Source: Chalara sp. BL73
Lineage: Eukaryota; Ascomycota; Leotiomycetes; Helotiales
Reading direction: 5' to 3'
DNA: 64,000 nt
Assembly (NCBI GenBank): GCA_918026815.1
Contig: CAKJVC010000062.1
Span: forward strand, 1 to 64,000
Position 1 is the first letter of the stretch; the number at the start of each line of letters is the position of its first letter. Below the pieces are notes generated by a model that worked only from the letters and a program-made list of their open reading frames with translations, was not told the DNA's origin and ran no database searches. Shown piece by piece: positions 8,247-40,710 of this stretch. The translations under genes were made by a program, and so were the position numbers.

Positions 8247-8257
8247 ATAAAAGCTGA

Positions 8258-18083: not shown

Positions 18084-19733
18084 ATGGCGATATATTCTTG
18101 GCTTGATAAACACTCTAATTATATCGCTGCCCTTCTCCTTGCATGTGTTATTCTGTCATATCTTTTTCCGGTTTGTGACTTTTCTGTCGCCATAACACCG
18201 AATCGATTTAATCATTGTCACAGCCTTTTTACATTGTTTCGCCTCTCCGCAACATCCCTGGTCCAGGCTACAGCCGTTTCACCAACCTTCCTCTTAAGCT
18301 TGCTGTAATCAGGGGCCGGCGACTCTACCATATCCATAATCTCCACAAAGTCCACGGTCCGGTAGTGCGGATCTCGCCAAATGAAGTCAGTATCGCTGAT
18401 GCTGACGCTTTTCGGACAATTCATCGTGCTGGCGCCGAGTTCAGAAAAAGCGATTTCTATGCACGGTTTGTCAATCAACCTGTGCCAGCCATGCTAGATA
18501 TGTCAAACCCGAAGCAGCACGCTGCACGGCGAAAGTTGTTTGCACGCCCATTCCAAAAAAGTGAATTGAGAACGAGATGGGAGAGTATGATAAGAAGTAA
18601 AGCAGAGTTGGCAATGCATAAAATTAGCATCGATATGGCTCAAGGTAAGGCTGACATATTGAAGTGGCTTTTCTTTATGGCGACAGACGTCACTACGCAT
18701 CTTCTATTTGGTGCCTCGATGCAGATGCTGGAAAATGGTAGAGTAGGCTGTCCTTGTCACCTCCATTACTCCTTTGATTGTTTAGCACAGTGATGCTAAT
18801 ATCTTCCAGGACAACCAATATTCTGATACTATCCAAGTTGCCAGAGGAGGTGCCATTACTGCCGAATTACCCTGGATCGGTTTCATTAGCTCAATGCTGA
18901 GACTTCCCATTCCATTGTTTCGCTCAAAAGATATAATCTTCATGTTTGGACAACTTACCATGTCGTTGACAAAAGGGCCTGATAGCGACCGCACCAGTAT
19001 TTTTGCTCAATTGATGAATGACCCTGACTCAAAAGAAAATAAAAGCCATTGCCTTTCGGATCTAGACATGGCCACTGAAGCTGGTAGCTTCACTATCGCT
19101 GGTACTGGGCCGGGGTTTGCAGTAACATATCTGATTTGGGCTGTTTTATGTCAGCCGACCGTACGCTGTGAACTTGAAGCCGAAGTTGGCAAACTAGATA
19201 GTGAATTTCGTGATGCAGATTTAGAAAAGCTCCGGCTTCTCAACGCAGTAATCAACGAAACAATGCGAATGTATGGAGTTGTTTCCGGTAGTATACCACG
19301 TATTGTGCCCCAAGGAGGATTGGAAGTTGGTACTCATTTCATTCCGCAAGGTGCCATTGTCAGCACACAAAGTTGGACATTACATCGAGATAAAGAATTG
19401 TGGCCAGATCCAGATGAGTAAGTTCTTCCTGTAAAATTGCCTCTCAAACGAAGACTGAAATCTTATTTTGATAGATTCAAACCCAGTCGCTGGTTGGCTG
19501 ATACAGCACTCGATTCTGAAAAGGCAATATTTGCTCCCTTCGGGACCGGTTCACGTATGTGCCTCGGTATTCACCTGGCGATGATGGAGATCCGTATAGC
19601 GACTGCACTGTTCTTCCGTCGATTCAAGGGCGTGAGACTAGCACCCGAGACAGCGGCACAGGAACTAGAATTCGAGAATTTTTTCTTAGTGAAGCCCAAA
19701 GCATCAGCATGCTTTGTTATGGCTGATTCATGA
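18084..19733 (+). CDS. Cytochrome P450 (cluster P450-1)
   Basis: Predicted 498-aa membrane-anchored monooxygenase from four exons: 18084-18170, 18224-18742, 18786-19417, 19475-19733. The total is divisible by three. An in-frame ATG at 18057 would add nine residues. Residues 8-28 form the N-terminal anchor, followed by the proline-rich hinge NIPGPG. ExxR is NETMR near residue 359, and the haem loop FGTGSRMCLG places the axial Cys near 442. The I-helix near residue 307 reads AGTGPG, lacking the acid-Thr pair of the usual AGxDT motif, so oxygen activation may be unusual. Intron 2 has two candidate donors; GTAGGC at 18743 was chosen because it alone keeps the frame. Its place at the edge of the PKS cluster suggests oxidation of the polyketide product. 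Confidence 0.93.
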
Positions 19734-19814
19734 TGAGAAATTAAGGAAAACAGTTTGTCTGACGCGTAACAGAGAATCTTTTGTGCTCTACTCTATTTAA
19801 ATGTTGATTCTATT

Positions 19815-21369
19815 TTATCTGATATTGTTTCCACCACATAACGCTTGCAGTCGCTCCAAGATGTGATCAGTGTTATGGCCGCCATGGTCATTATTATGAA
19901 GCAAGCATCCCATTATCGGATTCAGAAGTCGAAGAAAGCTTGTAGTATCGCGATGGTTGGCAAAGCAATCATAGGCGACCAACTGCAAATCATTTAATGT
20001 CACAGTGGTATCTCTTCTACGGATTTTGTTAGCTATATTGACTGAGGAGTTAGTTGAGAAACGTACACCAACTTTGCAAGTTGTGGACTGCAGAGAAATA
20101 GAATACTTGGCCCTAGACTAGCTACCAGAATTGACCACCGCTTGCCATAGCGTTTCTCGTCATGAAACTTTGTTCGAAGCTCGGATTTTTGTTGACTCCC
20201 AAACATATCCCAGCCTGGATGCATGTTGCTGAGAATATGATCAATCATAGCACTGGCATCTCCCCTCCCGATGCTCTTGGGTTGTTTGTATTTTTTGGGC
20301 TTTCCGGATTTCCATTCTTCCAGAGCAGCCTTGTAATGTGCATCAAGGAGGACTAAAGCAGCACGCCTTCGAATCGGATCGTTATCTTTTCTCACGTCAA
20401 GTTCACACACACATGTGTATATGCTCTCCAAGCTCTCATAGCCCGATTTTCCCCGATAAGGATTGGAAAGTGGCGACTGAGACCACAGACCGCTCTCTTT
20501 CCAGTACGGGAGATTTGTTGTTGTAAATTTCAGGAAATCTTCTCTGAGATAGCTTAATAGACTAGTTTGCTCTATGCCGTTAACGCTCCGAGCAGAACAA
20601 GGCTTCTTTGAGGATCGAGCACCCTTGAGCCTAGATGGAGAGGGAGGAGTTAAGGGTTCGATATTGCTTCTTCCTGTCTCGGAACATGATGGAGTAGGAA
20701 GGAGTGCAGGGGATCGCCCCTTCAAGCGTGATGCCTCGTCTAGCTCGTCATTCGGATCGCGAAAACTGATGCTAGGTGAGTCAATTGTACCCAATGAAAA
20801 ATCCATTTCGAAGGAATGGCTCGAAGGAGAAGCAAATGCTGGAGGACCTGTCATAGTAAAACTTCAGCGAAAGTATCTGAGTGACTAGAACATGCAGGAT
20901 AACCAAAATCACATACTACGGAAAATGTCATCCGCTCCAGCAGCCAACTCATACTCAAGATCAAATATATCATTTGTCATTCCAAAAAGCTGAGAACAAT
21001 GCATCGAGTCTATAACATCATTCCTAGTGCCGATATTTGGCCCACCGTCCGGCGACGCGGTTGACGTGCTCACACTCACTTGAGATCGAGACTCTGTATC
21101 GCATCTATACCGACGCTCTCATTAGTGCTATGCATTAGCTGAGATGACGAGCTCAAATCTTACCCCATCGCTGTCTCATTTTCAAGAATCAAAATTTGGG
21201 TGTACACTGTATTGCTACCAATGTTGACTTCACGCAGTTCAATCCGATATGGCTGCAAGCGAGCGGATAATTCATTAATTAAGTTGGCATTATTCTCACT
21301 CAGAGAAGACTTTAGGGCTTCTGCAAATTGGGCCGCATATGAGGGAGCGGGAGTTGACATGCTTAACAT
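19815..21369 (-). CDS. Unknown 456-aa protein of the cluster
   Basis: I do not recognise a characterised function. Four exons (21369-21164, 21104-20917, 20847-20073, 20016-19815) splice with consistent phase to 456 aa. If the second intron is not used, a stop at 20909-20911 ends a small protein and the 20854 ATG would start a second gene. The N-terminal part has an amphipathic stretch (SYAAQFAEALKSSL) and an ELREVNIGS segment. The middle is Ser/Pro rich with PLTPPSPSRLKG and a basic SSKKP patch. The C-terminal half is compact, with HPGWDMFG, KFHDEKRYGKRW and a hydrophobic LVASLGPSILFLCSP. The two halves look like a regulator or scaffold rather than an enzyme. It is convergent with P450-1, with 81 bp between the stops. 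Confidence 0.65.
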
Positions 21370-23986
21370 CGGTGACCCCAAAAACGCAACAGCTTCAAGG
21401 TGATTTAAATACACTTATGTGAGCGCTAATATAAAAAATCAGCAAGGCGCTAATCAGTAGGCTATGACAAGTGCTTAAATCATACTGCATGCTAACGAGC
21501 CAAAGAAGGATGATTTGAGAGACAGGGGCATGAGAGAGACTCCATAACACTGGCCCCTTCGTATTTTGACACTAACTCTCTCTGATCTGCTGCCTACCCA
21601 CTCACGGACTCTCTGCAAGTTGAAAGGTGAACAATACTTAAGGGTTGGCTCTTAGGATTTAATTAGTGTTACCATTGATACGTTATATCTCGAAGTGAAT
21701 ATAGACCGGCTCCACTACAAAGAGACACACCTTATATAAACTTAAGTTAAAGTCAAAAGGTACGGGGCGACCCTTCAACCGTCAGCCACCGCCGATCCTT
21801 CCAGGGTTTCTCCAAACAATTTGAAAACCTGGGGATATCCCCACACCACTGAGGCTCTCAACAAGTCGAGTAATACATGACCTCCCCCCGCTCTCTTGTC
21901 GTCGTCAACTTTTTGCTACAATATACTCTAATCTGGGGTCAGACACCCCCAGAACCCACAAAAACCCACTTTCACGTGACTAAATACCAACACTAACCAT
22001 TTACTTTATATACTTGGCAGCTAAAATTGTAACTTAAAAAAAATTAAAAAAAAAATCACACGACACTTTGCAAAGGCAAGGGTGGGGAGAGGTCGTGTAT
22101 CACTCGCCCTCAACAATAGGGTTAAAGATGTGCCGTAAGCAATAAATGGGCCGAAGAAGAGTTGCATTTGTGGAGAATGATGCACGAGCATCCCCTTTTA
22201 CTTTACGAAGCCCTCCCCCCCCTTCCCCCCTCCCCCCAAAAAACCCCAGGGTCTGTACTTAAATTTGTTGCTTGATAGCATTTCGACTTGTTATCGATGT
22301 CTCCCTGTCTCTCTGTTTTTTACCTCGGTTTGTTTCGCTAACGTAAGCTTAACGCTTTAGGGGCGGTTTTGATGTCAAAATTCTTTTCTTTATTTATGCA
22401 AAGCGATTTCAACTTGCATAACAACTTTTTTAGTTTTAGGCAAGTTCACCCAAAATTTGTTTTGTAAGATTTTGAAAAAAAAACCCCCCGAATTTAAATT
22501 TCTCAATGTGAAACATGCTAGCAAGCTGGTAAATACAAAACTAAAATTAAATATCAGCATTACATAAAAAAATATAACAAAAACTGTCACGAACCCAGCT
22601 TTTAGCAATAATAGTACAACTAATAAAGTGGTTTTATTACAAGAATACTAAACTAAAAGAGAAAGTTGTTGTACGGGAGGATCGAGATATTAGGTATTTG
22701 TGTGAAATATATAATATGCGTGTCACAATTGCAGGTCTTACGGCACGCTACTGTCCTATCACGACAGATAATCCTAATAAGGAAGTTCTAAAAGCGCTAC
22801 AAGTCTCGGGAAGTGACTTTTAAAAAGAATTAATGCTGAAACCAAAAAATGTAGAACATGTTTAAAACTAGGTAAGGAATTAGATTTAAACCGATTATTA
22901 CAAGCCTTATTACACAGCCGACAAAATTTGTTATACTTCAATTTCGACGTATAATTTGAAGTGTATAGAAAGCTGTACCGGAGAATTCCATTTAAAAGCT
23001 TGTAGATAGTTTGTGCAAGCGCTGTCAGCCTGTAATTAATACTAATAAAGGGCTATTAGAATCTATCCCTTTTTCTCGATTCTCTCGATCCTTGATTCTA
23101 CTGGCTATAGCTCCTTGTACGCTCCCTTGTACGCTCCCTTGTACAAACCCTTGTTCCGACCCTGGGATGTGCTGATTATTAGTAACTGATAGCAGAATCG
23201 ATATTCTACAAAGTGGGGGGAGGGGCTTGCGTATTATACTTTGCGGATGTTCCGCTCCAACAATTGTCTTATTTGCATACGAGGCCAATAAGAATTTATT
23301 GCCCCATGAACGGAATAGGAGGCATTTTGTTGGCTATTCTTTCACTACTCTGCAGTATCGATTTGATGCGTCATAGAGGCACATTCATGGCGACTCACCG
23401 CCAATTTGTATCCTGTAGCCCTTGTATAGTATGGCCGATCATTTTTTTGGCTCTCGAAAGTGTGACCGTCTAGTTATAAGCTGACCTTTTGACAGTACAC
23501 AATTGAGATTAGATCCATTTATTTACACTTATAAAAAGGCATGAATGCGAGGGATATGAAAAGAAGCGCAGCGTCAGTTGTTAATTTCTGATCCTACGAG
23601 ATCTTTCCGTGTGAACGTGTAATTATTGTAACAGCCAGCCCCAGCTGGATATGCTGATGGTTCATCAGCGGGGAAAGCGCGTTCTTTATTGGAGCTCAAA
23701 TGCCTGTTATATCATCCGGCAGAGTAACTTACTATAGATTGTATTGATTGGCTGCTGTATGACGCACTGAAGGCCGTGCACTAGCAGGGGTTCGGCCGCG
23801 TGTTACGGCAACGGGTGGCTTGCATATGGCGACAACAGTCCGCTCCGCATTCGAAGTTCAGTCATTATCCAGACGCATTTGTTGAGTTCCTCGATTCTCA
23901 CTTTCTGCATTGTTCTAAATAGCTCAACGGCACACTTATACTTTGCGTAGTAACAACGACCTGTCCATATACCTGTGATCAGTATC
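21370..23986. other. Intergenic region between unknown protein and GST
   Basis: No supported gene. Contents include a hairpin CTGGGG...CCCCAG near 21,932, a C-rich tract near 22,208-22,238, an AT-rich stretch at 22,380-23,020 and a 12-bp tandem repeat at 23110-23144. The AT-rich part could be an old transposon fragment, but no ends are visible. Confidence 0.5.
23110..23144. repeat. Tandem repeat GCTCCCTTGTAC
   Basis: Two exact 12-bp units at 23121-23144 are preceded by one unit lacking a single C. It lies about 840 bp upstream of the GST start and has no coding context. Confidence 0.7.
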
Positions 23987-24885
23987 ATGTCATCATCCCT
24001 CATCACCCTTTACTGCAATTCCGATCCCAACAGCTCGAAAATAAAAATAGTTCTTGAGGAACTCGGTATACCTTACGAGGTGAGGATGATAGATATTACG
24101 GCAAATGAGCACAAGGAAGAGTATGATTTCTCCTGAATACACGCTTTTCAAGTCACGGTTCTAAAGTGTTAACTTTATGATTAATCAAGATGGTTTCTCA
24201 AATACAACCCCAATGGGCGCATCCCTGCCGTTACGGATGGTGACCAGTGCATATTTGAGAGTGGTGCGATCATGCTATATCTAGTAGAGAAATATGATAA
24301 AGACCGAAAACTAAGTTATTCTCTGAATGACCCAGAATATGGTCAAGAGTTGAGTTGGCTGATGTGGCAAATGGGTGGTCTAGGGCCAATGCAAGGTAGG
24401 TGCCTCATATTTGTTTATACGTCCTGTTGCTAGAGATTAATCCTTCACATCTTAGTCATGATCTGTTCATATTTCAAGAAAGCTAATTAATGCACTTATC
24501 ACGATTGGCAGGACAAGCTCACAATTTCGTGGCGTTCGCGCCCGTGCGTTCAGACTACGGAATAGAACGATACACTCAGGAGACAAAGCGACTGTACTCT
24601 GTTTTAGATAAACGCTTGCAGATGTCCCCTTTCGTGGCTGGCGAAAAATACACTATTGCCGACATCGCTAGCTTTACCTGGGTACGGATTGAGCCACGAA
24701 CAGTGGGCATTGATCTAATGGAATGGCCAGCAGTAAGAAAATGGCATGACATCATTCTTCGAAGAGATGCGGTTCAGAAAGCATTGGATCTTCCAGCCAC
24801 AGAAGCGGCGGATGAGCAGTTTGCACAAATGGTTGCTGGGTTGAAGCTGAAGATGGCAGCAAGGGAGAACACGGATAAGCAATGA
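23987..24885 (+). CDS. Glutathione S-transferase, Ure2-like
   Basis: Predicted 237-aa cytosolic GST from exons 23987-24120, 24190-24395 and 24512-24885. The N-terminal thioredoxin-fold domain starts SSLITLYCNSDPNSSKI and carries the glutathione-site pattern NPNGRIPAVTD and FESGAIMLYL. The all-alpha C-terminal domain has LGPMQGQAHNF, ETKRLYSVLDKRL and YTIADIA, typical of the fungal Ure2/GTT class. GSTs in NR-PKS clusters have been linked to isomerisation, conjugation or C-S bond formation, and also to self-protection; the sequence does not decide. The stop lies only 89 bp from the convergent PKS stop, so the two transcripts probably share a terminator zone. Confidence 0.93.
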
Positions 24886-24974
24886 ACTTCCCTTTCTCGA
24901 GCTTACAGTCTATGTACATCTTTCAGGCGAATGCTATATCCAAAAGGATAATCTAAGCTCATCCACCCACTGGC

Positions 24975-27900
24975 TTACCTGTTCAATTGGTTAGCCATCA
25001 ATAAATATAAAATATCGAGCGCACTCACGTATGGGTCCTTCATTATGTTGAAATGATTTCCTTTAACGCAGAAGACGTGAATATTTTCTTTCCCCAGTAG
25101 CATATCCCATCCACCGTTGCCAAAGGCAGCAGTGCGATCATCTAATAGCCATGTCATGACTTTCTGGTCCTTGTCCGAGGCGACAGGTCTTGTCACAGAG
25201 GTTTGGTTATCCACTCCATGCTTCGCAACATAATAAGTAGTGCGAGGTGAAAGAGATTTGTCGGGAAACGGTTTTGGAACATAGTTCTCGAGGCTCAGCA
25301 AGGTTTGAGTAACATGTAAAGAACCCATTGGCTTGGGCGCATCTTCATTCGCTTTCTGGACTCCCTGGTTTTTTCCAGTGAAGCGATCAATTGAATCGAG
25401 GAAGTCTAGAAGCTTAAGAGGCATCGGAGGGATGACTAGTGGACATGGCGAGTCGACGAGGTAAAGTCTATCGACAATTTGCCCGTCAACAGTCAGTTGC
25501 AATGCAGCCTCATATGCAATTATTCCACCGACGGAGTACCCTAAAAATGAGTAGGGACCATGAAGTTGTCGCCGCCGGACTTCAGCTACATACAAGCTAG
25601 CCATTTCTGGTATACTGACAGTAAAGTCTTCAGGTGCGTTCACAAATGCACTATTCAAACCAAAGACGGTAATATCCTGGCTGATGTTAGGCATTGATGC
25701 AAATGAAGAAGCCGTTCCAAATCCGCCAGGGAAGAGGAACAATATTCCCTTCGTTGTACTTTTCTTTCCCTGCAACATAACAGAAGTGGCTTGATGGCGA
25801 AAAGTAGTGGCTATTTGCTGCTCTGCGACTGAGAGTACTTGGTTAACACTTCCGGTGGGAGCTACACTCTGGGGTGAATGCCCGCTGGTGAATTCTGCGG
25901 ATGCAGAGAGTTTCCTTGAACTCTTGATGTCACTAGTTGCTTGGGAGCCGTTCTCGAGAAACCGAACAAACTCCCCGACTGTGTTGCACCTCTGAAATAT
26001 TGTTGATGATAGATCTAGGCCAAGGGATTCTCGAAGGCGACCGAGTATCATTAACGACATCAAGGAGTCAATTCCCATGTCAGAAAATCTGGCGTCTTTC
26101 TCAAATTTCTGCTTCGTAGCGCCTAACTGCTCACAAAGTATGTCAAGAACTGCGTTGACCAATGGCGGACCCTCAAAACTTTCAATCCTTGCTACTTCGG
26201 AACATCCATCGAGTATTTTGGCAGATGATGAGGTTGTAGTGTCCCACATCTCAAAAGATGAGTCCGAATCTAAGCTTGCTCTGTATAATGCAGCACCCTG
26301 GGTATTTCTAGTTAGAAGATTAGATTCCCTTGCCATTTTAGAGGTCGGAGCCAATAGAAATTTCAGAGCCTCTCGTTTCACGAACTGAAACCTGATGCCT
26401 ATAGATACCCCGATGATCTCTTCATTGTCCAGGACGTATAAATCGCCACTGTACGTGCTGCCCAAGCTTGGTTGCATTTTGACGTAGATGGTGTAGAATT
26501 TATTCGCTGACAATGAAGAAGCAAATTGCATCGTTTCCCATCCGTTAGAGATATAAACTGCCTTTTTCGTGTCAATAACCTCATTAGCATTCATAACAAA
26601 GCCCGACAGCTGCGTAAGGGTGTCAATCCAGTATGGGCTGCGGTAAAAGTTTCCCATACTCTCACCAGCCTTGAATGAGACTCGCGCAACGGCTTCAAAC
26701 TGTTCGCTATGAAGAAAAACCTCGTCCATTCCATGAAAATTCTCCGAATAATCTACAACAGTCGCGAAGATCTTATAAGCCATCTGTCGGTTTAACTTGT
26801 TGACGTTTTTCATACCCTTGATATGAGTGATGCGTGAAATTATCAAGTGCTTAGATCGCCGCCATTGTTTGAGAATCTCACCGGCATCTCTCAACAGAAC
26901 TGTGCATTCTGCATACAGTTTTGGTGTTGGGGCTCCGTTGCCTGTATCCGAGAAGTGAATACTGACCTTGCCGTCAGCCAGGGTAGCTGTAATCCTGATG
27001 TGCTGCTGTTCATGTCCGTCGGACAAGTCTAAGATCACGGGAGCTAGGATTTCCATATCTACAACATCCATGCTAAGATGAACAAAGTCTGGTATCGTCT
27101 GTTCATAAAGATACTTTGCGGCTGTAAAGGCCATGTCGGCGTATACAGACTTTTCGTGTCAGCTTTCGCTCAATAGGCACTGTAAGATAGGCTCCCTTAC
27201 TGATTGGCAAAGCCCAACACCATTAATAATGTGGCCCTTGATTACCTCGCGCAAGGCGCGATCGGTCAGGTTTGACTCAAATTCCGCCATCACTGTAGAT
27301 GAGTTCCTGCTCTCTCGAACAAGGCGCTGGATGGACGCCGTAGCAGGGCCTTTTTCTCTCGCAGCATCAGGTAACCTATGACCAGTATCCCCCTTATGTA
27401 GAGTCCAATCATTCTTATAATCTATCCAGTAGTTATGTTCGTCAAAAGCGTAAGCCGGAAAATCAAGTACTGAGCGTGTTGAATCAAGGTCTCGGTTATA
27501 CTCTATCCAGTCAATCTCCAATCCACGCTTGTAGAGAAGGCTCAGACTTGTAGAGATGACCGCCCACGAATCGTCGCCTCTTCGCATGGACGGAGCTGTA
27601 GAATGGTTCAGAATATTTCTGATCATTCCTGAGCAGATAGGGTGAGGTCCTAGCTCCAGAAACTGTAAATTCTCCCCATCCGCGATCAAGCTCAAGCTTT
27701 TCAAAGCTGTAAGGAAGTCTACGCGCTCCCTCAGGTGCCTGCATAGATACTCATCGTCTATTGTCTCTCCTATATGTATTTCTCTTTCAAGAAGGGGCGA
27801 AAGGAGAGGAATGGTTGCTGGTAAAAACTGGACCCTTTTTGCAAGACTTTTGTAAGGTTGTATGATTGGATCAAGCTGCGAAGAATGACATGCGTAAGGC

Positions 27901-30900
27901 ATATCGAGCCGGACGGATGAGATTCCCATGCTTGATGAGATGCTCGCTGCTAACATTATCCTTTTTACAGACCCACTGAGTACAACATCATTAGGACCAT
28001 TTATGCAAGCTATTTCTGTCTGCGTCTGGCACAACAAGTCATCTATACTTTTATAATTAGCTTTAAGTGCCAGCATGGCATGCGTACCTGGAGTGCAATG
28101 CTGCTCCATCATTTCCGCACGTCTACCAACCAACAAAATTGTATCGGCTGCTGTCATAACTCCACAGGCATAAAGCGCTGCATATTCCCCAAGGCTGTGA
28201 CCGATCAACCTATCTGGGACGACACCCCAAGCCCGATATAAGCGACAGAGAGCCATTTGAATACAAACTTGTCCAAGCTGTACTTGGACAGTGGAAAGTG
28301 ATTTCAGATCGACCGTAGTGTCTAACAGAGGAAGAAAGGATGCTAGACCTTCAGTCTGTGCCAGACTATTGAAATGTAGGATGTCTTTGCGGAATTGATG
28401 GGAAGTTGCAAACAGTTCCTTCCCCACTCCCGTATAAATACCACCTTGGCCAGTAAATGCAAAAACAATTTTAGGCTTTTCCATAATGGTAGCCTCTTCT
28501 ATGCTCATTAATGCTACTTGCAGATCATGGATATTCGAGACAGCCGCCATAAATCGGTAAGGATAGTGAGCTCGCCTGCCCGTGGTGGTGTAAGAGAGAT
28601 CTGCCAATGATGTTGCCAGATTATTCTCGAGATACATTCGCAATCGCTCTTTATTCATTCTCAATGAGTTTGGGGACTTTGCTGAGATTGCAATAAGATA
28701 AGTTGAGTTATGTAAAATGGAGTCGGGCATCGTTCTTCTCGGAGGCTCTTCCACCAACAAGGCTGAATTCCCTCCTGCGGCACCGAAATTGTTAATGAAA
28801 ATTAGCCTTGTGCGATCTTCAGAACTCTGAAATGATTTAATAACGCGTGGGATTTCAATTCGCCTCTTGTCTAGCTCAGGGAATTTCTGGTTGATTATTC
28901 CCTTAATGCCGATATGAGGTGGAATTTCCTGGTTTTGAAACATGAGAAGGGATTTTATCACCGCTGTGACACCCGCTCCTGCTTCGCTGTGGCCAATATT
29001 TGCTTTCAAAGATCCAACGTAGAGTGGGTTTTCTGACCTTCGACTTTTTACTGGTGCGAAAACATTACTAACCGAGCTCATCTCCGTGCTGTCGCCAATT
29101 TGTGTCCCTGTTCCATGCATTTCAATATAGTCAATGTCGAGAGGATCTACCCCTGCTTGTTTCAGAACGGTCTTGTATAGATACTCTTGAGTTGGGCCAT
29201 GTGGCTGAGTGATCGAGGACGCTAGAGAGGAATGGTTGGTGGCGGATCCAAGTATAACACCAAGTACGGGGTCATTATCGGCTAACGCATCCTCTAGGCG
29301 CTTCAAAATAATGGTCCCTACTGCATCTGCGCGGCAATAACCATCGGCAGTGTCATCAAAGGTCTTGCAAGGACCTACCTTTGACAAAAAGTGTCCTTGG
29401 CTAAGACCTGCATACATATCAGAGCCTGTAATGATGTTCATTCCACCTGCAATAGCAGTATCGCAATCTCCACTCCACAGAGAATTACAAGCAACTTGGA
29501 TTGCTGCTAAACTGGATGAGCACGCAGTGTCGATAATAAAGCTTGGACCAGAAAACTTGTAGTGGTAGTGAATTCGGCCCTATGTATTCAGTAAGTAGTA
29601 TACCTTTCAGTTGTCACGTTTACTTACCGGCCCGAAAGGTCGCAAACCGCCTGTAACATAAAATGCATCAATTTTTTGGGACGCATTGACTTCTCGATAA
29701 TCATCTAAAGTTTGACCGTAAAAAGTCCCGACTCTATGCAACATCGACGAAGGTGTCCTGTTTGGTACGAACCCAGCCATTTCGAGCGCTTCGTGAGCCG
29801 TTATCAATGCGAGCCGCTGCATGGGATCTGTTATTGAGGCTTCGTGGGGAGACATACGGAAGAACGAGGGATCAAAGAGACCTGGTTCGTCTATAAAACA
29901 GCCATATGGGGTAGAACTCGTATTATTCGTCTTCCCACTAGGATCAACATGGGTCGTAACATCGAAACGATCTTTAGGGATCTGTGGAGACGCACTTAGT
30001 ATGTTTGGGCGTTTCTATTGGGTGAGCACATACTTCCTTGTGGAGATCCAAACCTTTCGCAAGCACGTCCCACAGCTCCCGAGTATCTTTCGCACCTGGA
30101 AATCTTCCTGCCATCCCAACAATTGCGATCCTAGATCTCTGTGCAATTTTAAGGTCACCATTTCTAGATTCAGCGCTCACAATACTCTCTGCTGCAGTCT
30201 TTAATGATGCCTGAACTCTTCCCTGAGAGTGTAGTCTGCTAACCAGGCTCTTACCAAACCCTAAATGACCAATAACAATCACTTGAGCTTCCGAAGTTGC
30301 CATGCCATCTACTTCATGTAGAAGGATATCCCATCGTAGAGTATCTTTCAATATCTCATTAATAACGGCTCTGAGCAGAGTGATCATGTCAGGTGCTTCG
30401 ATTGGTTTTCCGGTCTTCGTTGAGAGCAAGGGTGAACGACTCTCATAGCGAGCAAGGATTTCTCTCACAGAGAAATCGTGGACCCCAATAATCCAATCAA
30501 TGTCCGCGGAGTGATGAAGATGTGGCGCATGATAAGGGCCAAACACAGGAATGGTAACATGAGAGCATCCGGTTTCTCGAAAATTGCTCGACCTGTGGAA
30601 CTTTCTCAGCATGGGTGGAGGACCTGAGATTGTGGTTGAAGTTGGAGTTACTGCGCTAATGTAAACTCGACATGCATTGGGTGGATCCTTCACTGCCGTC
30701 AGTTTCTTGAGATAGATGGCTGAGCAGTGTAGGTAAGCACACGAGACCTACCGTGTCTTCATGAAATGCAGCTAAGACATCCGCCTCAAGCCTTCCTTGT
30801 ATAACGTTCGACCAACTCTCACTGGCGCTAGCATCGCCTCCGAGACTGGTAGCAACCAAACTTGTATGGACGCCAATACGGAGAGCAATGCAGACAATTT

Positions 30901-31360
30901 GTAAGGCAAGCGGTATTAGATCTTTGGTATGAGATGCGTGTGCTGTAACTGCTGCTGCTGGGAGGAGGCCGGTACACAACCCTAATATGTGGTATTTTGA
31001 AAAGTCTACATCATTTCCAACGTCGTCCATATATCTATATTCTCAGGTTAACTAGAGCTCTAACAGTGCGAATAGTGTCACCAACCCAAAAAGCTCCACA
31101 AACTGGGATATGGCTGTCAGAATCGGTCTCAAAACAGGATCCTCGACCGGCCATTTTCCGAATGTTTCGAAAGGTTCTGGAGAGAGCAGTATACCTGGGA
31201 GTAAGTCTTGTTCAAGTCGAGGCAACAAATGGATCTGTTGACGAAGAGCAGTGTCGACTTGGCTTAAGAATTGCTGTACAACGTGCCGTTTTAAGAATTT
31301 AGGATTCCGGATTGCCTCAAACGTTTCACTTGATTGATCCCCAAAAATGAGGAAGTTCAT
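24975..31360 (-). CDS. Non-reducing polyketide synthase (SAT-KS-AT-PT-ACP-TE)
   Basis: Core enzyme of the cluster: builds an unreduced polyketide on the ACP and folds it into an aromatic. Six exons (31360-31086, 31034-30752, 30705-30034, 29981-29628, 29579-27201, 27149-24975) give 2045 aa in frame. The SAT domain has the nucleophile motif GLCTG. KS starts near residue 375 ([12 protein letters not shown]) with [10 protein letters not shown] (Cys near 547), HGTGT and [12 protein letters not shown] has FTGQG and [10 protein letters not shown] near 990. PT has the catalytic His in [11 protein letters not shown] near 1309 and the Asp region [16 protein letters not shown] single ACP has MGIDSLMSL near 1677. 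TE has GYSVGG near 1850, with VDSPCPL and a GNHF His. No KR, DH, ER or methyltransferase domain is present. Chain length and cyclisation mode cannot be read by eye. Two introns use weak signals (GTTGGT donor, AAG acceptor). Confidence 0.96.
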
Positions 31361-32148
31361 CTTGTCTGGCCACAACCAACGTTCTGTAGTATCAAGTGAT
31401 TGGACAAGGGGATAGCACACGCGATGTGCTGAAACTAGTGGCGGAGGTGCGAATCCTTGATTGATTGAACTGCAATGGTGTAATTCCTCTAGAATATGGC
31501 GAGATTTTTTCCTCGGGTAAAGCCGTACTTATACCACTCCTCCTGCCCTTCCTAGCTGCTTAAGCACGTCCTCTACCTATTTCATGTGACATCATGTAGT
31601 TGCAGGATAGAGAGTCTCATCAAACTAGGCAAACAAAATTTTCATTCTAGCTACGGAGCAATTGGAAATTTAGGTATATATTCCTTACTCATCCCGCTAA
31701 GTTTATAGACCTCAAGTCTTCAAAAGTATTTGGCGGCACCAATATTCCACGATGCCCTATGAAAAGTAGTATGTTGATTGCATGAGAGAAATCTTTGCAC
31801 TTCAAGATATATGTTCTAAATCACGGAGTGCTCGTGAAATACTTCAAACGAGACTGTTCTAGTCGGTGAGAGGATTTACCACGTCTTCAATGTGGCTGAA
31901 GGCGCTGGCTCTCGCAGCCATGGGAATGTTATAGGCTATGAATGAAGAAAATATTCTTAAATTTCTCTCTAAGCTCGATGCCAGCCTACCAAGACTCGCT
32001 ATCCCAATTTTGAAGAGGTTCAACTGTCTGAGACGCAATATCTGGTGGAGAGCATATATCACTATTGAATGACTACGCGTTTATTTATTTATTTATTTAT
32101 GCATTCCTGTAAGTATGTCGCCTCTCATATTTTGTTAGGTGTAATAAT
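31361..32148. other. PKS upstream region
   Basis: About 790 bp between the PKS start and the kynureninase stop on the same strand. It holds a (TTTA)5 microsatellite at 32080-32100 and a small open frame at 31859-32062 (minus) without family motifs. The PKS promoter must lie here. I saw no convincing TATA box or regulator site. Confidence 0.5.
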
Positions 32149-33769
32149 TCATATTGCAGACGCTGATAGAGCGCCGTGTAAACCCTCCACAAATTTCCAT
32201 ATATCCATGAAGGTGTTGTACATGGGAACAGGCGCGACTCTCATGATATTCTTCTTTTGTGCAACTACAATACCATTCTGTCTTAGCTTCGGTATCACGC
32301 TATCTAAAACTTGCTGCTCAAAGCGAAGGCTCAATTGAGCACCACGCTCAGACTCATTTGAGCTTGTCATCAGCTCAAAGAGGTGACATGTCGGCATTTG
32401 AAGCAAGAGATACTCAAGGTATCCTGTAAGGAGAGCTGATTTTTGCCGGAGAGCTGACATACTAGTTAGGTTGAAGACTTGGAGGGATGAGATCAATGCC
32501 ACTGTATCTAGGATGGAGGGATTAGAAACTTGATAGCCTGTTGCTCCAATGGCCGGCTCAAAAGCTTGTAAGATCTGGTCAGTAACTAGGCCGCAGTGAT
32601 CTAGGTCGCAAAATCATGAGTACTCACAGTTTTTCATCTCAAACCGATTTTGCACATCATTCCCCCACCACCCCGCAAGTCTTGGACGATACCCATCCAT
32701 CCCCATTGACTTGTCAACGTGTCCATATTTCTCGTGTACAAATATGCTACCAATAGCTCCAGGTCCAGCATTCATATATTTATAGTTGCACCATACAGCA
32801 AAATCGACATTCCAGTCATGGAGGTTGAGCTCAATGTTCCCCACGGCATGGGCCAGATCCCAACCAACTAGAATGCCTCTCGAGTGTGCGAATGTGGTAA
32901 TTCTTTCGATCTCCAGTACTTGTCCACTAAGGTACTGAACCCCAGACAAAATTACTAGAGCCACGGACGACGCATTCGCCTCGATAATTGAGAAAATATC
33001 TGACGTCGAGATGGATAATGTTCGATCACATCTCGGTTCAATGAAAACCATGTTTTCAGCAACATTAAATGCATGCCATTGGACCTGAGATTGTATAGCA
33101 TACTACTCCCTCGTGTTAGCAAACGAAAATTTCCAAGTAATCAACCGCAATTACGACCAATTACTCACATAATCACTTGAAAATGTCTCTCGTTCAACAA
33201 TGATCTTACTCCGTCCCACAGAAGGCTTATAGAAGCTAGCCATTAGAAGATGTAAATTGGTTGTCAGACTCCCCATCACTGCCACCTCCTGAGGATGTGC
33301 TCCTACAATCTTGGCCATAAGCTCTGCCGCAACTCGATCGGTTTCGCCCCAGTTTGGTAGTGGAGAATCTTTCATCTTCTTCCCCAAGCCATACATACCT
33401 TGCGTTGCCCATGTGCGCAAATATTCATTGATGAGTATGGGTGTCTGCAATGGCAGGAGCCCTATTTGGTTGCCACACAGGTATATTCCCGGGTCATGAT
33501 CCTGTGAGGTACCTGCACTCAATGTCAGCTCGAGTAAGTTTCAATATGAATACATTGCAGCGACATCCTTAGCTACCTGGAAGCGATAATGTGCTGCTAT
33601 TAAGCGATACTCTACTTGGTAATTGAAATTTCTCCCGTAAATAAGAGAGAGGATCATTTTCGTCTTGAAGTTGCGCGAACTCTCGCTCATTTGAGTATGA
33701 ACTTATTGAAACTTGGAAAAGCTCATTATTTGTGATCTCATCAGTGATCTCTTCAGAATGTATGGCCAT
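32149..33769 (-). CDS. Kynureninase (PLP-dependent)
   Basis: Cleaves kynurenine or 3-hydroxykynurenine to alanine plus anthranilate or 3-hydroxyanthranilate in the cytosol. Exons 33769-33577, 33512-33169, 33102-32628 and 32564-32149 give 475 aa, the usual length for fungal kynureninases. Family marks include IYLCGNQIGLLP, the PLP-phosphate region MGSLTTNLHLLM, DLAHAVGN with the PLP-contacting Asp near 261, and the Schiff-base lysine in CNYKYMNAGPG near 287, then ARLAGWWG and FEPAIGATGYQVSNPSI. All catalytic residues I can identify are present, so the enzyme looks functional. Its place between PKS and methyltransferase genes, in the same orientation, argues for a dedicated cluster copy that supplies anthranilate-type units. 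A resistance or housekeeping copy is the alternative. Confidence 0.94.
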
Positions 33770-34318
33770 CTCTGCGAAGTTAAGCCCAATTGGAAGCAGA
33801 CCACATTAATCTTCTCCTAAAAAGCTGGAACTGTGTCTCTGCAATGGCGACATGGAGGTTTATTAAAAACGCTTCGTTCTTATGAATGGAAAAACATGAT
33901 TGCGAGCTATGCCCACAAATGCTAAATACTTCTGTAGGACCTGAGGGATCACTCTAGTTTAAAAATTATCTCTAGGTGAGGACATTCTTCGACACCTGAG
34001 GTCATGCAAGTGACAAAGAGTAGAATATAAACATCGGAGCTCGAATCAATTGCTCCTCGTGGTAGCCATGAAACCCCCCACATATACTTCAAGGTAGACC
34101 AACATCAAAGAGGAGCATCAGTAGCGCTTTTGTGATACAGACCGTCGAAAGTTCTACATGATAAAGCCATGTATTGTAATACACAAAGATCCAAATCGAC
34201 TCGCCCATGGCTGAACTGTAGAAATATTTACATTCAATTAAGATTTTCAATATCCTCCGACCACTGATTACGCTATCTTTTTGCAAGGATTGTATAGATT
34301 TGCAATTAATTGGTTCGT
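33770..34318. other. Spacer between methyltransferase and kynureninase
   Basis: About 550 bp holding the kynureninase promoter and methyltransferase 3' region. A small minus-strand frame at 34089-34286 has no family motif and is treated as non-coding. Confidence 0.5.
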
Positions 34319-35416
34319 CTACATAGGACGCTGTGCGACCGTTACGTAGTGCAGCTGTTCGATAGCCACGCCAGCTGAAACCTCTTGCCGTACATCCTGA
34401 ACTCTCTGGCGAAGCTGTTGCCCAGTGCCAAGTATAGGATGAGATCCCATCTTGTCCAATACAGTATAGCTAAACTCTTCCCATCCTCCAATTGCTAGAT
34501 ATGTGGACATCGGGCGTAGTGCTGGAATGGGTTTAGGTCTAAATTGTTTCACGTTGACCATACCCAAAGCCTCACAACTGGTCGGCAGCTCCTCCAACCA
34601 ACTATGACCCCACTGAATTAGCGAAACCGAACAGTTTAGGTAGATGCTTGCGAACTTTATTTTAGTGGGATGGACATACTCGTGAGTGACCCCTAAAGTC
34701 GGTAACGCTGCTTTTCCAGTGTCATTAAAATCTGATGTTGCTATACTGGGAGTATCTGAGGTGACTGAAACGACTGATTGCTTCTGTATATTGACCTCTA
34801 CCCATTGAAGGTATCCACCAGGTTCTGTGCTACACGTCAGTATCCTCTACTGATGAAAATATGCTAGCTATGCCATACTCAAAAGGGAAATGAGGCTCTT
34901 TAATAGACCAAGGTGATCGCTATTCCTGATGGAGAGTGCAAAATATCTAATATTCACAACATCATATTTTCCTAAAAATTGATCTGGAATTGGCCCCAGG
35001 ATGTCCAGTGTATCAAGTGTCACATTAGCGGGTAGCCATTTCTTCGGCGGGAACTGGGCGTCACTTATGTCGAAGCCGTCAATTTGAACTGTTGAGGCTA
35101 GGCTTCTGGATAATGCGAGTGGCCATATGCTAGATATTGTTATGAACAAATTTCTACATTTCCAGGAGAATGTTCCAAGGTATTACCCGGTCCCGGTTGC
35201 TATGTCTGCAATTCTTGCATGAGCATCAAATAAAATGTCTGGATGCATCTGATATCCCAATGACAGCTGGTTCCAGAAATGTTGAAGGTTAAGCCTTGGT
35301 AAGAACAATCTCAGTATACGAGTCATAAAGAATAGCGAGGAGATTGAATACCGTGCGCTTGCGTGGCTACTTGTTTCTAGCCAATACTCGTTCTCGTCTG
35401 GCGGCATGCTTTTCAT
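34319..35416 (-). CDS. SAM-dependent methyltransferase
   Basis: Predicted 328-aa class I methyltransferase from exons 35416-35187, 35129-34879 and 34824-34319. SAM motif I is built across intron 1 as IADIATGTGIWPLAL. It is followed by IDGFDISDAQFPP, DVVNIRYF and the post-motif KPGGYLQWVE that spans intron 2. The N-terminal NEYWLETSSHASARY matches the LaeA/GliN-like group of fungal secondary-metabolite methyltransferases, whose substrates are O or N atoms of pathway intermediates. The region after KPGGYLQWVE is less typical, and another small intron there cannot be excluded. It is co-oriented with kynureninase and PKS, so a role in tailoring is likely. Confidence 0.88.
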
Positions 35417-35952
35417 AATTTCGCAGTAAATAAAAATAATTGAAGGCGTGTTGGCGCTTGTAATTCTTCTAATAGATCATTATTTGGGCTGACAAGGTAA
35501 CTATCGTTCGCATCCGCTGAAGCACCTCAAAAAGTAGATACCCGATATTATTATATCCTTCGTGAATGAATTGTGTCTCAAAGTGACCGCAATCCTAGAA
35601 ATATTGCGTTTGAGATCCTAAATTGTCGCCAAATTCCACAGACTAAGTAAAAGACCACCTTTCCCAAATTATAGACTTGAAGTCCTTTCGTACCTGACTA
35701 TCATGCCAGCGAAAGAGATGCATTTTATTATTTTAAGTAAGTTATCCTTTTCAGCGCTAACGCGATACAAGCCCATTTCTAGTTCGCGGAGGGTTTCGTT
35801 GATGCTAAATCAACCAAACATAGCCGAGCCAAGGCTAAAACTTCCCTTGTAAGACTAGGGTCTTCTCCTGCGAGTCTCGTACTTGTCCAACGACAACCGT
35901 CCAATGTCCTATACACAAAGTGGTGGAAATGGCCTCACAGCGTCTATTCCAA

Positions 35953-36183
35953 TCAATACACGCATGCCACATTCAACATTAGTGTCAGCTTTTGACACGG
36001 TTGCGTATTGTTCTGCGTGATGGGGATGAGCGGCTTTTCCATCCACACAATGTACATCAAGGGAAAATCATGGCCATCAGCAATTAATTCTTCGATGCGC
36101 GACCAACCTGGTTCGTTGCAACTCAGAGACTGATCAACGGTTTTAATGACACTCCACAGCTTAAAGAAGGTAGACGGTAGCAT
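35953..36183 (-). CDS. Small hypothetical protein (76 aa), doubtful
   Basis: An uninterrupted ATG frame with balanced composition (WSRIEELIADGHDFPLMYIV) between two cluster genes. No family recognised and no signal peptide. It may be a real small protein, an exon of an unrecognised gene or chance. It lies about 540 bp upstream of the methyltransferase on the same strand. Confidence 0.25.
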   Translation of the reverse strand: MLPSTFFKLWSVIKTVDQSLSCNEPGWSRIEELIADGHDFPLMYIVWMEKPLIPITQNNTQPCQKLTLMLNVACVY

Positions 36184-36348
36184 CTATAACAACTCAGGAA
36201 TAGAAGATTTCTGGCGGCCGCCGCGCCTACCTATAGGGAGTGACCGCTGAATACTGCTCACCAATCATCCTCTTCGCCTACTTCAGAACCACAGGTGAGC
36301 AATTCTTTTGACCTTGCTCCTCGGCATTATATATTTTTTTCTTGAATG

Positions 36349-36356
36349 ATATAAAC
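36349..36356 (+). promoter_or_regulatory. TATA-like box upstream of the prenyltransferase
   Basis: ATATAAAC lies 75-82 bp before the ATG at 36431, preceded by a second TATA-rich run near 36,327. The spacing suits a fungal core promoter. Confidence 0.35.
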
Positions 36357-36430
36357 CCAGGTCATTTGTCAGGCACTTCGTAAAGGGAAATCGAAAATCA
36401 ACTCTGCCGTATCTTATTCTTTCCTTCATA

Positions 36431-37354
36431 ATGGTATCTATTGCTGATTTCTCTGTTTTCTCTTCATCACAGTTCTTACAAGACATAAAAAAGACTGCTC
36501 AGTCTGTTGGTGCTCCTTACTCGGAGGCTGCAACTCTCACGGTCATCAAAACCTTCGAGGATTGCTTCAAAGAAGGAGCGGTAATATGGCGCACAACAAA
36601 CCGGCCCGACGACCGTTTAAACTACCGATTCTATGCCCGTAAGCGGATTGATACAATATCCATATCCACTCAAGCGGGTTTTCTTGAGAAAGACAATCAT
36701 ATGGCACGACTAGTGACCTCGTGGAGCACGCTTTATAACGGCGATACAGAACAGTGGTGCGATTTCGACGCTGAGACAGGGCTTGCAAAGAATTGGGTCA
36801 ATCTAAGGGGTCGACGACAGGTGGATGATATATTGGCCGCAAAGGAGGTGCCAGAAGCTGTTCGTGCTAATGGGCCAACTTTCCACAACCTGGGTTTAGA
36901 GCTCGTCCGATTCCTTGCGGTCGACTATGCTTCCAGCACATTAAACCTTTATTTCACAGCACCAGGACCAGTGTCTGAGCAACAGGCTACCCAGTATGTG
37001 GAACTAGCACAGTCGCCCCCTCCTACGAAGGAAGAGTTCCAGGATATGTGTGACTTCTTAAATCCGAAGGGCTATGCTTTTGCTGTCACTATGGAATACG
37101 CGACTGGCAAAATCACCAGAGTGGCCTTTTATGCTTTGGATATGCCTTCAAAAAAGCTTCCTACTGTGAACGACAAAGTTCGCAAGTTTTTCTCGGAAGC
37201 CCCATCATATGATCAAGTACAGACCAGAAACATTGCTTGGTCATATGGGAAAGGAGGCAACAAATATATGAAAGCTGAATGCAGTTATTGTGGAGGACTT
37301 GCTGCTCTTTTGAAGGATGTTGGAGCCCCTACTGGTGCTCATGTGACTTCCTGA
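36431..37354 (+). CDS. ABBA-type aromatic prenyltransferase (NphB/CloQ family)
   Basis: A single-exon 307-aa soluble enzyme that transfers a prenyl group from a prenyl diphosphate to an electron-rich aromatic ring. Co-linear features of the CloQ/NphB (Orf2) family include IGAP-like SVGAPYSEAAT, GAVIWRTTNRPDDRLNYRF, DFDAETGLAKNWV, LELVRFLAVDY, NLYFTAPGP, RVAFYALDMPSKKLP and NIAWSYGKGG...YMKAECSY. These proteins are Mg-independent and lack the (N/D)DxxD motif; none is seen here. The family is mainly bacterial, and a few fungal members are known to prenylate dihydroxynaphthalenes and other phenols in vitro. The aromatic product of the neighbouring NR-PKS, or an anthranilate-derived ring, is the natural candidate substrate. 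The start is fixed by the ATG after a short leader. Confidence 0.93.
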   Translation: MVSIADFSVFSSSQFLQDIKKTAQSVGAPYSEAATLTVIKTFEDCFKEGAVIWRTTNRPDDRLNYRFYARKRIDTISISTQAGFLEKDNHMARLVTSWSTLYNGDTEQWCDFDAETGLAKNWVNLRGRRQVDDILAAKEVPEAVRANGPTFHNLGLELVRFLAVDYASSTLNLYFTAPGPVSEQQATQYVELAQSPPPTKEEFQDMCDFLNPKGYAFAVTMEYATGKITRVAFYALDMPSKKLPTVNDKVRKFFSEAPSYDQVQTRNIAWSYGKGGNKYMKAECSYCGGLAALLKDVGAPTGAHVTS

Positions 37355-38068
37355 GGTGAGGCAGAATCTTGTCACATATTCACCGCTTGTTTTTTTAGAT
37401 GTTCGAAATGCTATAAGGTTGATACCTTCAATTATCCTTGGTAGAGTTTGAACATGTGAATCCTCTAGGCTAGACAGCTAAAGCAGTTGACCTTAGAAAG
37501 CATGATACTCGCCATAGACCAATGTTACTATAACTCAAGTAATCTAAAATCGATCTTTGCCAAAGATATTTCCAATCTAACTGTATTTTATGCTTATTTA
37601 GTTAACACACGGTGTAGAAGAGTCAGAATCCACAGGCGGATGAATTTACTCTGTTCCTCTCAAAAACATTGAGTTTTGAAAATTCTTCAAGATGTAGATT
37701 ATTACCCACGAGATATACTTGGCCAGGTCTCTCGAGCCATAAATGCTAAATGTCAGAGTTGTGTAAGTTCTGTAGCTTAGAATTGACTATATAGCTACTT
37801 GTGGACAAGCTTGGGTAATCACCTTCACGATATCTCTATAATTTTTACTTATGAAGGATCAATAATGTTGTGGAGTACTATTATCAGACCATATCCTTAT
37901 TCGCTGCAAAGAAAGCTGAACCCAAGGACCTGGCACCCGCATCATCGCTTGCATGCTTGCGCAATGTGCAGGACGTTAGCGAAATCTCTGCCTAGCCCTG
38001 CAACTTGTTGAATGCCATTTTTGTACTAAATTCATTTAGTGATTTCCTGTTTGTTGTTAGTACGGGTA
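37355..38068. other. 3' region of prenyltransferase up to the MITE
   Basis: About 700 bp with no supported gene. Short plus-strand frames near 37,487 and 37,799 carry no motif. The target TA of the transposon insertion is at 38067-38068. Confidence 0.5.
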
Positions 38069-38738
38069 TAACGACCAGCCTACAGCAACGCAAAATCGGG
38101 TAATAAAATATAACAATTAATCAAATTTCAAATCGCAATTAGAAATCAGCTATCAGTTTACAAAAGTACTTAATCAAAAAATATTAAAGTAATACGTTTT
38201 TAGCTGATTTTCCTCGCCGACTAATTTAGCTAGTATAACTAACATTTCCGGCTAACTTTTTTTTAGCGAACCGCTGTAGTTATATTAAAATACAGGTGCG
38301 TTGTAAAAAGCTGTTGTATTGTAATAACAAAAATCAAGATATTTTGGAAAAGAAAAGTAATATTTACAAAAAATAAAAAAAATGCATATAAAAAGAGTTA
38401 TGTAAAGAAAAGCTATGTAAGGAAAAGTTATGGAAAAGAAAGTCATGTGGAGCTTTCCTTTACTTTCTGTACATATTACCCCTTTTTCGAAATTATTTCT
38501 TTTATATTTTTATTGTTACTTAACTGCAATACAACTAGCTAGAAACGTTAGCCAAAAGTGTTATAGAAGCTAAATTAGTCGGCCAGGAAAGTCAGCTAGA
38601 AACGTATTGTTTTAATATTTTTTGGTTAAATACTTTTTGTAAACTAATAACTGATGTCTAATTGCGATTTGAAATTTGATCAATTGTTATATTTTATTAC
38701 CCTATTTTGTGTTGTTGCACGTTGCACGTTGGTCGTTA
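38069..38738. mobile_element. 670-bp MITE with long terminal inverted repeats and TA target duplication
   Basis: The element starts TAACGACCAGCC and ends with the inverse GGTCGTTA. Aligning the left arm with the inverted right arm shows about 200 bp of similarity on each side, for example GGGTAATAAAATATAACAAT on the left and the same on the inverted right. It is flanked by TA on both sides (38067-38068, 38739-38740). It has no open frame. TA duplication and arm structure point to a non-autonomous Tc1/mariner (pogo/Fot1-like) element. Arms differ mostly by transitions. It sits about 260 bp upstream of the second P450 ATG and may affect its promoter. Confidence 0.9.
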
Positions 38739-39001
38739 TATCATGCTATATTAGACACAATATTGACTTTATATCTTTTAAGTCATGATGCAAAAGAAAT
38801 ATCATTCGTGGAACTTTTGCTCTGTCGGCTACTTGCATCACGCGTCACCATGACCTCTGCTATAAGTACGTCTGAGTTTATCAAAGAGTTACACTCCAAC
38901 ACCAAAGCAGTATTCATATATTGAGATTCCGAGCGACGCGGGTCGGGACAATAAGTAATTATTCCAGTTGGCGGGCACAGGCTGCCCTTGGAAAGGACAT
39001 C

Positions 39002-40710
39002 ATGTTCTCTTTGACAGCTGATCTATTATCTCTTGCAAACTTTCAACTCTTAATGCCACTTGGGCTTCTCGCCTACATCGCCAGCGTTGCAATTTACCGA
39101 CTCTACTTCAGTCCTATTGCACATATTCCGGGTCCGAAGCTTGCTGCACTCACCCAGTGGTATGAGGCGTACTATAACCTTTATCTTGATGGGCAATTCA
39201 CATTTCACATCACCAAACTCCACAAAAAATATGGTAATGTCTTCCTGAAGTAAAAATTACAAAATATCAATAAAGTCGTCACAGGTCCAGTAATTCGCAT
39301 CAACCCATGGGAAGTTCACATTAATGATCCCGAATACTTTGAGACCATTTACTCTGCGAAACCTTTCTCCAAGGTCAAATGGCATTCAACTTGGAACATG
39401 TCCCCGAAATCTAGTCTTTCCACAATAGAGCACTCCCACCATCGCGCTCGCCGTGCAGCTTTTAATCCGTTCTTCTCGAAGCTTGCCATTAACCGGTTCG
39501 CCCCTGAGATTCAAGCTCGAGCTTCTGCGCTCTGCAAAAAGATTAACTTAGACTTCAGTGGGAGGTCAATAAATTTGGGTTTGGCTCTGGGGGGTTTCGC
39601 CACAGATATCATTTTAGAATACTGCTTTGCGACCGACTCCAATTGCTTGGACGCAAAAGACTTTGATGCGCCGTTTCCGAAAGCTATAGAAGCATTGTCA
39701 TCCAAGAGTCATTTCACCATGCATTTCCCTTGGATCGCAAATTCCTTGACAAAACTGCCAGACTGGCTAATGAACACATTAAATCCGGGCTTAGCATCAT
39801 TTTTCAATTTTCAAAAGGTCCGTTAATCAAGAGTTGATAGTTCAAATAAGGTAAGCTAATAATGACCAAAAGAACATGAACCTACAAATCAAAGGAATCA
39901 TGTCGAATAGCACTCATACCAGTAAAAGAACTACGATATTCCAAGAAATCTTGGCTAGTAATACTCTTCCAGCTCAAGAGAAAACACTTTCACGCCTCCA
40001 AGATGAAGGAGTCACACTCGTAGGAGCGGGAATTCATACAGTCAGGTGGTCAGTCAGCCTAATGTGTTTCTACATCTTGAGTGAGCCAGAAATCTTCCAG
40101 CATCTTCGGGAAGAGCTGGATGTAGTCTGGCCGGACATTGAAAACCCACCGACCCTGAAGGAGCTCGAGCAGTTACCTTATCTGACAGCCCTAATTCAAG
40201 AAGGTGAGTGTTCCAGGATTATCTGAATATGTACTTTAGATTGACTAAGAAATCACTATAGGACTTCGTCTTTCTAATGGTGTGGCCTCTCGAAGTCCTC
40301 GGACAGCGCATCAGCATTTGTGGTACAAGGCATTCAAAATACCACCCGGAACTCCTGTTTCTCTGACTTTCTATCACATACATCAGAACGAAACTATCTT
40401 TCCTTCACCAGAAATTTTTATTCCTAATCGTTGGCTCCCAGATACAGTCACCGGGGAAATGCCTGTTGGACCAATAGACAAAAAGCTATTGACAAGATAC
40501 CAGGTTGGATTTGGAAGAGGTGCCAGGCAATGTGCGGGCCTAAATCTGGCATACGCAGAAATTTACATCTTGCTTGCCAATCTGTTTCGTTGTTGCGAGA
40601 TGGAATTATTCGAAACGAGCGAGAGAGATGTGAGATTTTACCGCGATCATGTTGTAGCTGCCGCAAGGCCCGGGTCTAGCGGCTTACGTGTCTTCATAAA
40701 AGAAATATAA
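39002..40710 (+). CDS. Cytochrome P450 (cluster P450-2)
   Basis: Predicted 514 aa from exons 39002-39233, 39285-39817, 39873-40203 and 40262-40710, in frame throughout. The N-terminal anchor ([21 protein letters not shown]) is followed by [19 protein letters not shown], which is typical of the trichodiene-oxygenase-like fungal P450 group, then [14 protein letters not shown]. ExxR is EGLR near 365 and spans intron 3. The haem loop [10 protein letters not shown] places the axial Cys near 456. The I-helix near residue 306 reads GAGIHTVRW: the Thr is kept, but the usual acid (AGTETT) is His. It is a probable ER membrane tailoring oxidase of the cluster. The ATG lies just downstream of the MITE. 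Confidence 0.93.

Follow-up and report, generated by a model that had tools for sequence, protein, structure and literature searches.

A non-reducing polyketide synthase and a divergent kynureninase inherited together in a putative biosynthetic gene cluster of Chalara sp. BL73

Why would a kynureninase, an enzyme of primary metabolism, lie next to a non-reducing polyketide synthase (NR-PKS) and close to an aromatic prenyltransferase in a fungal genome? The question is raised by positions 18084 to 40710 of the window, the 64,000-nucleotide stretch of Chalara sp. BL73 contig CAKJVC010000062.1 that was analyzed here (contig C56 of a genome of 58.7 Mb in 199 contigs). An earlier note on this DNA had proposed a biosynthetic cluster in which kynureninase supplies anthranilate or hydroxyanthranilate for a nitrogen-containing prenylated polyketide. 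We consider it reasonably likely, with appreciable room for doubt, that this is a real secondary-metabolite cluster, whose core is formed by the NR-PKS and a specialized kynureninase and whose product joins a polyketide to a substituted anthranilate-type acid.

The two core genes are also linked in other genomes. A shared contig was read from the identical size of the longest contig reported for each match, covering the best 120 of 7,990 kynureninase matches (8,000 candidates scored), the best 120 of 2,080 PKS matches and all 62 prenyltransferase matches; the length filters applied may hide partner genes. In Bisporella sp. PMI_857 (Leotiomycetes, Helotiales), PKS, kynureninase and prenyltransferase all fall on a 24,033-bp contig. 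PKS and kynureninase share a 211,116-bp contig in a record labeled Sphagnum balticum, which presumably represents an associated fungus, and a 2,772,374-bp contig in P. odoratum. In A. ellipticus, a predicted protein of 2,398 amino acids (P0186) on a 266,275-bp contig consists of a kynureninase followed by a PKS, with a prenyltransferase on a contig of the same size, and a similar kynureninase-PKS protein of 2,290 amino acids (P0188) is predicted on a 309,308-bp contig of A. insuetus. Counting the window, the two genes occur together in six genomes, while two genomes have only one of the partners listed.

Gene order appears to be partly retained as well. On the minus strand of the window the methyltransferase gene is followed by the kynureninase gene and then, after a gap of 788 bp, by the PKS gene. 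The Sphagnum kynureninase model (P0064) carries the C-terminal part of a methyltransferase at its own N-terminus, and 86 amino acids near the C-terminus of the window methyltransferase are 75.6% identical to this N-terminal part.

The trees of the two enzymes display matching clades. For the kynureninases, a quick tree of 125 rows places the window enzyme in a clade of seven (SH-aLRT 99), together with Bisporella, the Sphagnum record, P. odoratum, A. ellipticus, A. insuetus and A. heterothallicus. A bootstrapped subset of 41 rows recovers this clade with support of 100/99 on a stem of 0.66 changes per column. The PKS tree (FastTree, 121 rows) likewise holds a seven-row clade with support of 100, comprising the window, Bisporella, Sphagnum, P. 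odoratum, A. ellipticus, A. insuetus and A. sclerotioniger. In both trees the window pairs first with Bisporella, its best relative among the matches listed (96% identity for kynureninase, 92% for PKS), and the Sphagnum row joins next. Since the PKS and the kynureninase co-occur in distantly related molds, they probably serve one common pathway. Cluster membership, which the earlier note had based on co-location only, is for these two genes now backed by co-inheritance; the prenyltransferase is not always linked.

The joined proteins predicted in A. ellipticus and in A. insuetus could be taken for kynureninase-PKS fusions, which we do not accept as established fact. In both, the PKS part starts with its usual methionine right after the usual kynureninase C-terminus, and in both the match to the fungal PT-domain profile is split in two, the A. 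ellipticus model visibly lacking a stretch; joining by the gene caller is therefore likely. True fusions would belong to a quite improbable scenario, in which the kynureninase is a polyketide-coupled enzyme dependent on pyridoxal phosphate (PLP), either cleaving with a thiol in place of water, so that a thioester starter passes to the SAT domain, or running a reverse carbon-carbon step that adds an alanine unit. If that scenario were true, the fusions would represent a new domain architecture.

By sequence family, the cluster enzyme is a kynureninase. It scores 365.1 bits against TIGR01814, for which the curated cut-off is 246.4, and aligns with the human and fungal enzymes (EC 3.7.1.3; 3e9k, 2hzp) over residues 27-470 of 475 (1.3e-100). 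For a comparison of individual residues, the seven clade members were aligned with 118 other sequences and human KYNU, whose numbering is used here. All seven cluster-type enzymes retain K276, D168, D250, H253, W305, R434 and N333. Like 3e9k and 2hzp, the cluster enzyme thus keeps the PLP lysine together with the catalytic and carboxylate-binding positions, K276, D168, D250, H253 and R434 being the residues that we take to be the PLP lysine and catalytic positions.

Unlike 3e9k and 2hzp, all seven cluster-type enzymes carry the same series of substitutions at positions that are near-invariant elsewhere. S75 is replaced by Q and H102 by L (each conserved in 117 of the 118 other sequences), and Y226 by L (Y in 115). 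The same holds for L76 to I (L in 117 of 118), A/V99 to M (V in 116), P166 to S (P in 117) and D426 to A (D in all 118). At position 407 the seven have F, as does the human enzyme, where 112 of the 118 others have L. We assume that S75, H102 and Y226 are substrate-pocket residues and that H102, with N333, sets the choice between kynurenine and 3-hydroxykynurenine. Another kynureninase in the PDB, 7s3v, presumably an engineered human variant, carries W102 and T333 besides further changes. The earlier statement that the kynureninase has all key residues therefore holds for the PLP and catalytic positions and fails at H102, which is changed to L. One other sequence without H102 was encountered, P0138 of Xylogone sp. 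PMI_703 (A75, A102, L226). It is sister to the cluster clade (100/98), a placement made less sure by its long branch, and is possibly another kynureninase of specialized metabolism.

These substitutions bear on what the enzyme might do. In the simplest case, an ordinary extra kynureninase would raise the level of anthranilate or 3-hydroxyanthranilate, which would then be joined to the polyketide, as had been proposed. Such a role would agree with the TIGR01814 score, which exceeds the cut-off, and with the seven retained positions. However, S75Q, H102L and Y226L in all seven enzymes leave anthranilate supply as only one option, no activating enzyme was recognized in the scanned part of the window, and tryptophan biosynthesis already provides anthranilate. 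We therefore regard plain supply as rather unlikely, and the corresponding claim is weakened. Judged from the residue pattern, a modified kynurenine-type substrate fits better.

The enzyme could alternatively protect its host. If the cluster product inhibited kynureninase, an insensitive copy inside the cluster would keep tryptophan breakdown running and have no biosynthetic role. The genome holds at least two other copies, on contigs C126 and C27, both retaining S75, H102 and Y226, as well as a weak match (26%) on contig C11; all these counts are lower bounds. With two further copies present and a clade of its own, the cluster enzyme was rejected as a housekeeping copy of this genome. Known resistance copies show the same pattern of an extra copy with an altered pocket and intact catalysis, and changes at conserved, presumably substrate-pocket positions beside unchanged catalytic ones would suit this role. 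Nevertheless, the cluster enzyme is not a recent close duplicate, as indicated by its identity of 43-50% to the two other copies over their pieces and by its deep clade with the long stem. It has also lost residues, near-invariant in the 118 others, that a stand-in should keep, and it is tied to one PKS clade. Self-resistance thus appears unlikely.

We return to a biosynthetic role for both core enzymes. The core consists of the NR-PKS and the kynureninase, followed by the methyltransferase, and its co-inheritance extends over Helotiales and Eurotiales. We infer the substrates, the order of the reactions and the product as follows. The NR-PKS would make an aromatic polyketide, probably of naphthalene type. 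The kynureninase would retain PLP-dependent C-beta/C-gamma chemistry on a 4-aryl-4-oxo-2-aminobutanoate, with an aryl pocket remodeled by the changed residues that presumably line it, and its substrate would most likely be a kynurenine altered by methylation, by prenylation or in some other way. Cleavage would yield alanine and a substituted anthranilate-type aryl acid, which would end up in one product with the polyketide. The prenyltransferase, methyltransferase and cytochromes P450 would decorate this product, the prenyltransferase acting on an aromatic intermediate.

The gene content of the locus is in line with such a scheme. Gene models were built from stop-to-stop open reading frames (ORFs) joined at GT-AG introns, with the lengths of homologues as a guide; PKS introns 1 and 2 were picked to keep the reading frame, and at least two P450 and at least two PKS splice sites are the best among several options. 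None of the eight models contains internal stops. They are listed here with a putative regulator:

18084..19733, plus strand: cytochrome P450 a, 490 amino acids, 4 exons (Pfam p450, 191 bits)
20033..20854, minus strand: single-exon ORF, 273 amino acids, no Pfam match; cluster membership uncertain
23987..24885, plus strand: glutathione S-transferase, Ure2p/YfcG-like, 237 amino acids, 3 exons (Pfam GST_N/GST_C)
24975..31360, minus strand: non-reducing PKS, SAT-KS-AT-PT-ACP-TE, 2039 amino acids, 6 exons (Pfam and motifs)
32149..33769, minus strand: divergent kynureninase, 475 amino acids, 4 exons (Pfam KYNU_C and Aminotran_5)
34319..35407, minus strand: S-adenosylmethionine-dependent methyltransferase, 325 amino acids, 3 exons (Pfam Methyltransf_23)
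36431..37354, plus strand: ABBA aromatic prenyltransferase, CloQ/NphB type, 307 amino acids, single exon (PF11468)
39002..40710, plus strand: cytochrome P450 b, 514 amino acids, 4 exons (Pfam p450, 182 bits)
43288..45674, minus strand: transcription factor (Fungal_trans match), candidate pathway regulator, putative member

The gene set named beforehand is borne out, in that seven genes carry the expected Pfam domains, and the proposed borders coincide with the start of P450 a and the end of P450 b; of the eight models only the ORF at 20033-20854 had gone unnamed. The glutathione S-transferase matches 4ivf, YfcG and PcUre2p4 in the PDB, where the methyltransferase has no match at an E-value of 0.01. 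Upstream in the transcription factor gene lies a cysteine-rich exon that looks Zn2Cys6-like by eye. To the right of this putative regulator, window positions 46124-49301 hold a class II aldolase/adducin-type gene (minus strand) and an MFS transporter gene (plus strand). An AT-rich block with 24% GC occupies positions 8001-12000 to the left of the cluster, and the right side at 44-52 kb is near 50% GC.

The PKS appears intact, as had been described, up to and including its TE domain. Pfam recognizes SAT, KS, AT, one ACP and TE, with the PT region appearing as a weak PS-DH match, and the motifs GLCTG (SAT), DTACSSS (KS), GHSLGE (AT), GHIING (PT), GIDSL (ACP) and GYSVGG (TE) are all present. By eye, the joints of the model match those of the annotated Bisporella protein P0183, which is shorter (1792 amino acids) and stops before the TE; the kynureninase joints agree in the same way with Bisporella P0063. 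Norsolorinic acid synthase (8cg4, aligned over residues 6-2027), CTB1 and Preu8 share the SAT-KS-AT-PT-ACP-TE architecture, whereas the window PKS sits in its own seven-row clade. Within the clade, relatives P0183-P0188 are 51-92% identical to it. The closest relatives outside, at no more than 45% identity among the matches listed, include Preu8 and proteins named BcPKS12, which we take to be naphthalene- or melanin-type PKSs. The best guess for the PKS product is therefore a naphthalene-type aromatic, and judged by these nearest relatives the enzyme probably makes an aromatic polyketide of that kind.

The assignment of the prenyltransferase to the CloQ/NphB type is confirmed by a near full-length match to PF11468 (PTase_Orf2; 281.8 bits, profile positions 1-284 of 287). 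Its best solved relative is CloQ (2xm5; 220.7 bits), aligned over residues 10-294. Fungal ABBA prenyltransferases of this family exist, as seen among the matches and noted in PMC10344970. The window enzyme belongs to the same family as these and CloQ, and differs from them in being set in an NR-PKS/kynureninase cluster. Its closest relative, with all 62 matches listed, is that of Bisporella sp. PMI_857 (97% identity). The tree of this family is less resolved, and A. ellipticus groups with A. tanneri and P. odoratum rather than with the window.

One further PF11468 match and no more was found in this genome, at C82:1988931-1989755, and it too adjoins an NR-PKS gene (SAT matches), near a DMATS gene. 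This second cluster (C82:1975251-1989755) spans about 15 kb and contains the DMATS gene, the NR-PKS gene, a gene that looks P450-like by eye and the PF11468 prenyltransferase gene, so that two prenyltransferase families stand side by side. The NR-PKS has, by eye, a reductase-like C-terminal end.

Several observations weigh against the reading of the locus proposed above. In P. odoratum, the prenyltransferase (a 215-amino-acid model) lies on another contig than the PKS and kynureninase, and none of the 62 prenyltransferase matches accompanies the contigs of A. insuetus, A. sclerotioniger or the Sphagnum record. Among the matches listed, the A. sclerotioniger PKS has no kynureninase partner and the A. 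heterothallicus kynureninase no PKS partner. The PKS tree was built with FastTree only, with odd composition flagged for five of the seven clade rows (window, Bisporella, A. ellipticus, A. sclerotioniger and A. insuetus) and long end branches for A. sclerotioniger and A. insuetus. A search of the literature on the roles of S75, H102 and N333 found no paper. No gene for an anthranilate-activating (AMP-binding) enzyme was recognized in the scanned part of the window, where the Pfam scan covered, of 28 ORFs of at least 150 amino acids, 19 directly, four only inside gene models and five not at all. Finally, among spaced pairs of 4-base half-sites in seven promoter stretches, none reached four stretches, whereas in three of 12 control draws a pair did; four 8-mers do occur in four of the seven, a count made without control. 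These counts speak neither for nor against a shared promoter motif.

The unlinked P. odoratum prenyltransferase, and a promoter comparison that brought out no common motif, would also fit PKS, kynureninase and prenyltransferase being chance neighbors from different pathways. Against such a coincidence stand the shared PKS-kynureninase contigs in Bisporella, the Sphagnum record and P. odoratum, the joined models in two Aspergilli and the matching clades, which render it highly improbable. We describe the locus as a fungal cluster of a common type in which one enzyme of primary metabolism stands out as unusual, being both altered and inherited together with the PKS. The analysis backs the gene content and the one-cluster arrangement; the predicted nitrogen-containing prenylated polyketide is a possible product and not more.

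Precedents for a cluster-borne kynureninase are found in bacteria. The antimycin, daptomycin and sibiromycin clusters carry their own, that of sibiromycin acting on methylated 3-hydroxykynurenine. The likeness lies in a cluster kynureninase beside an assembly-line enzyme; those clusters are bacterial and centered on nonribosomal peptide synthetases, in contrast to the fungal NR-PKS and prenyltransferase found here. No described cluster combining a kynureninase with an NR-PKS was found in open PMC full texts, most subscription journals and MIBiG being outside the scope of the search. The earlier note, whose author knew no described fungal pathway with this gene set, agrees with these open papers, an agreement that is not proof of absence.

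Fungal polyketide biosynthesis appears to have drawn in an enzyme of primary metabolism and to have retained it alongside a single PKS clade in two classes of Ascomycota. The enzyme is defined and open to testing, its substrate being predicted to have changed. The cluster also offers a lead to a metabolite family and a setting in which to look for what a fungal ABBA prenyltransferase naturally acts on.

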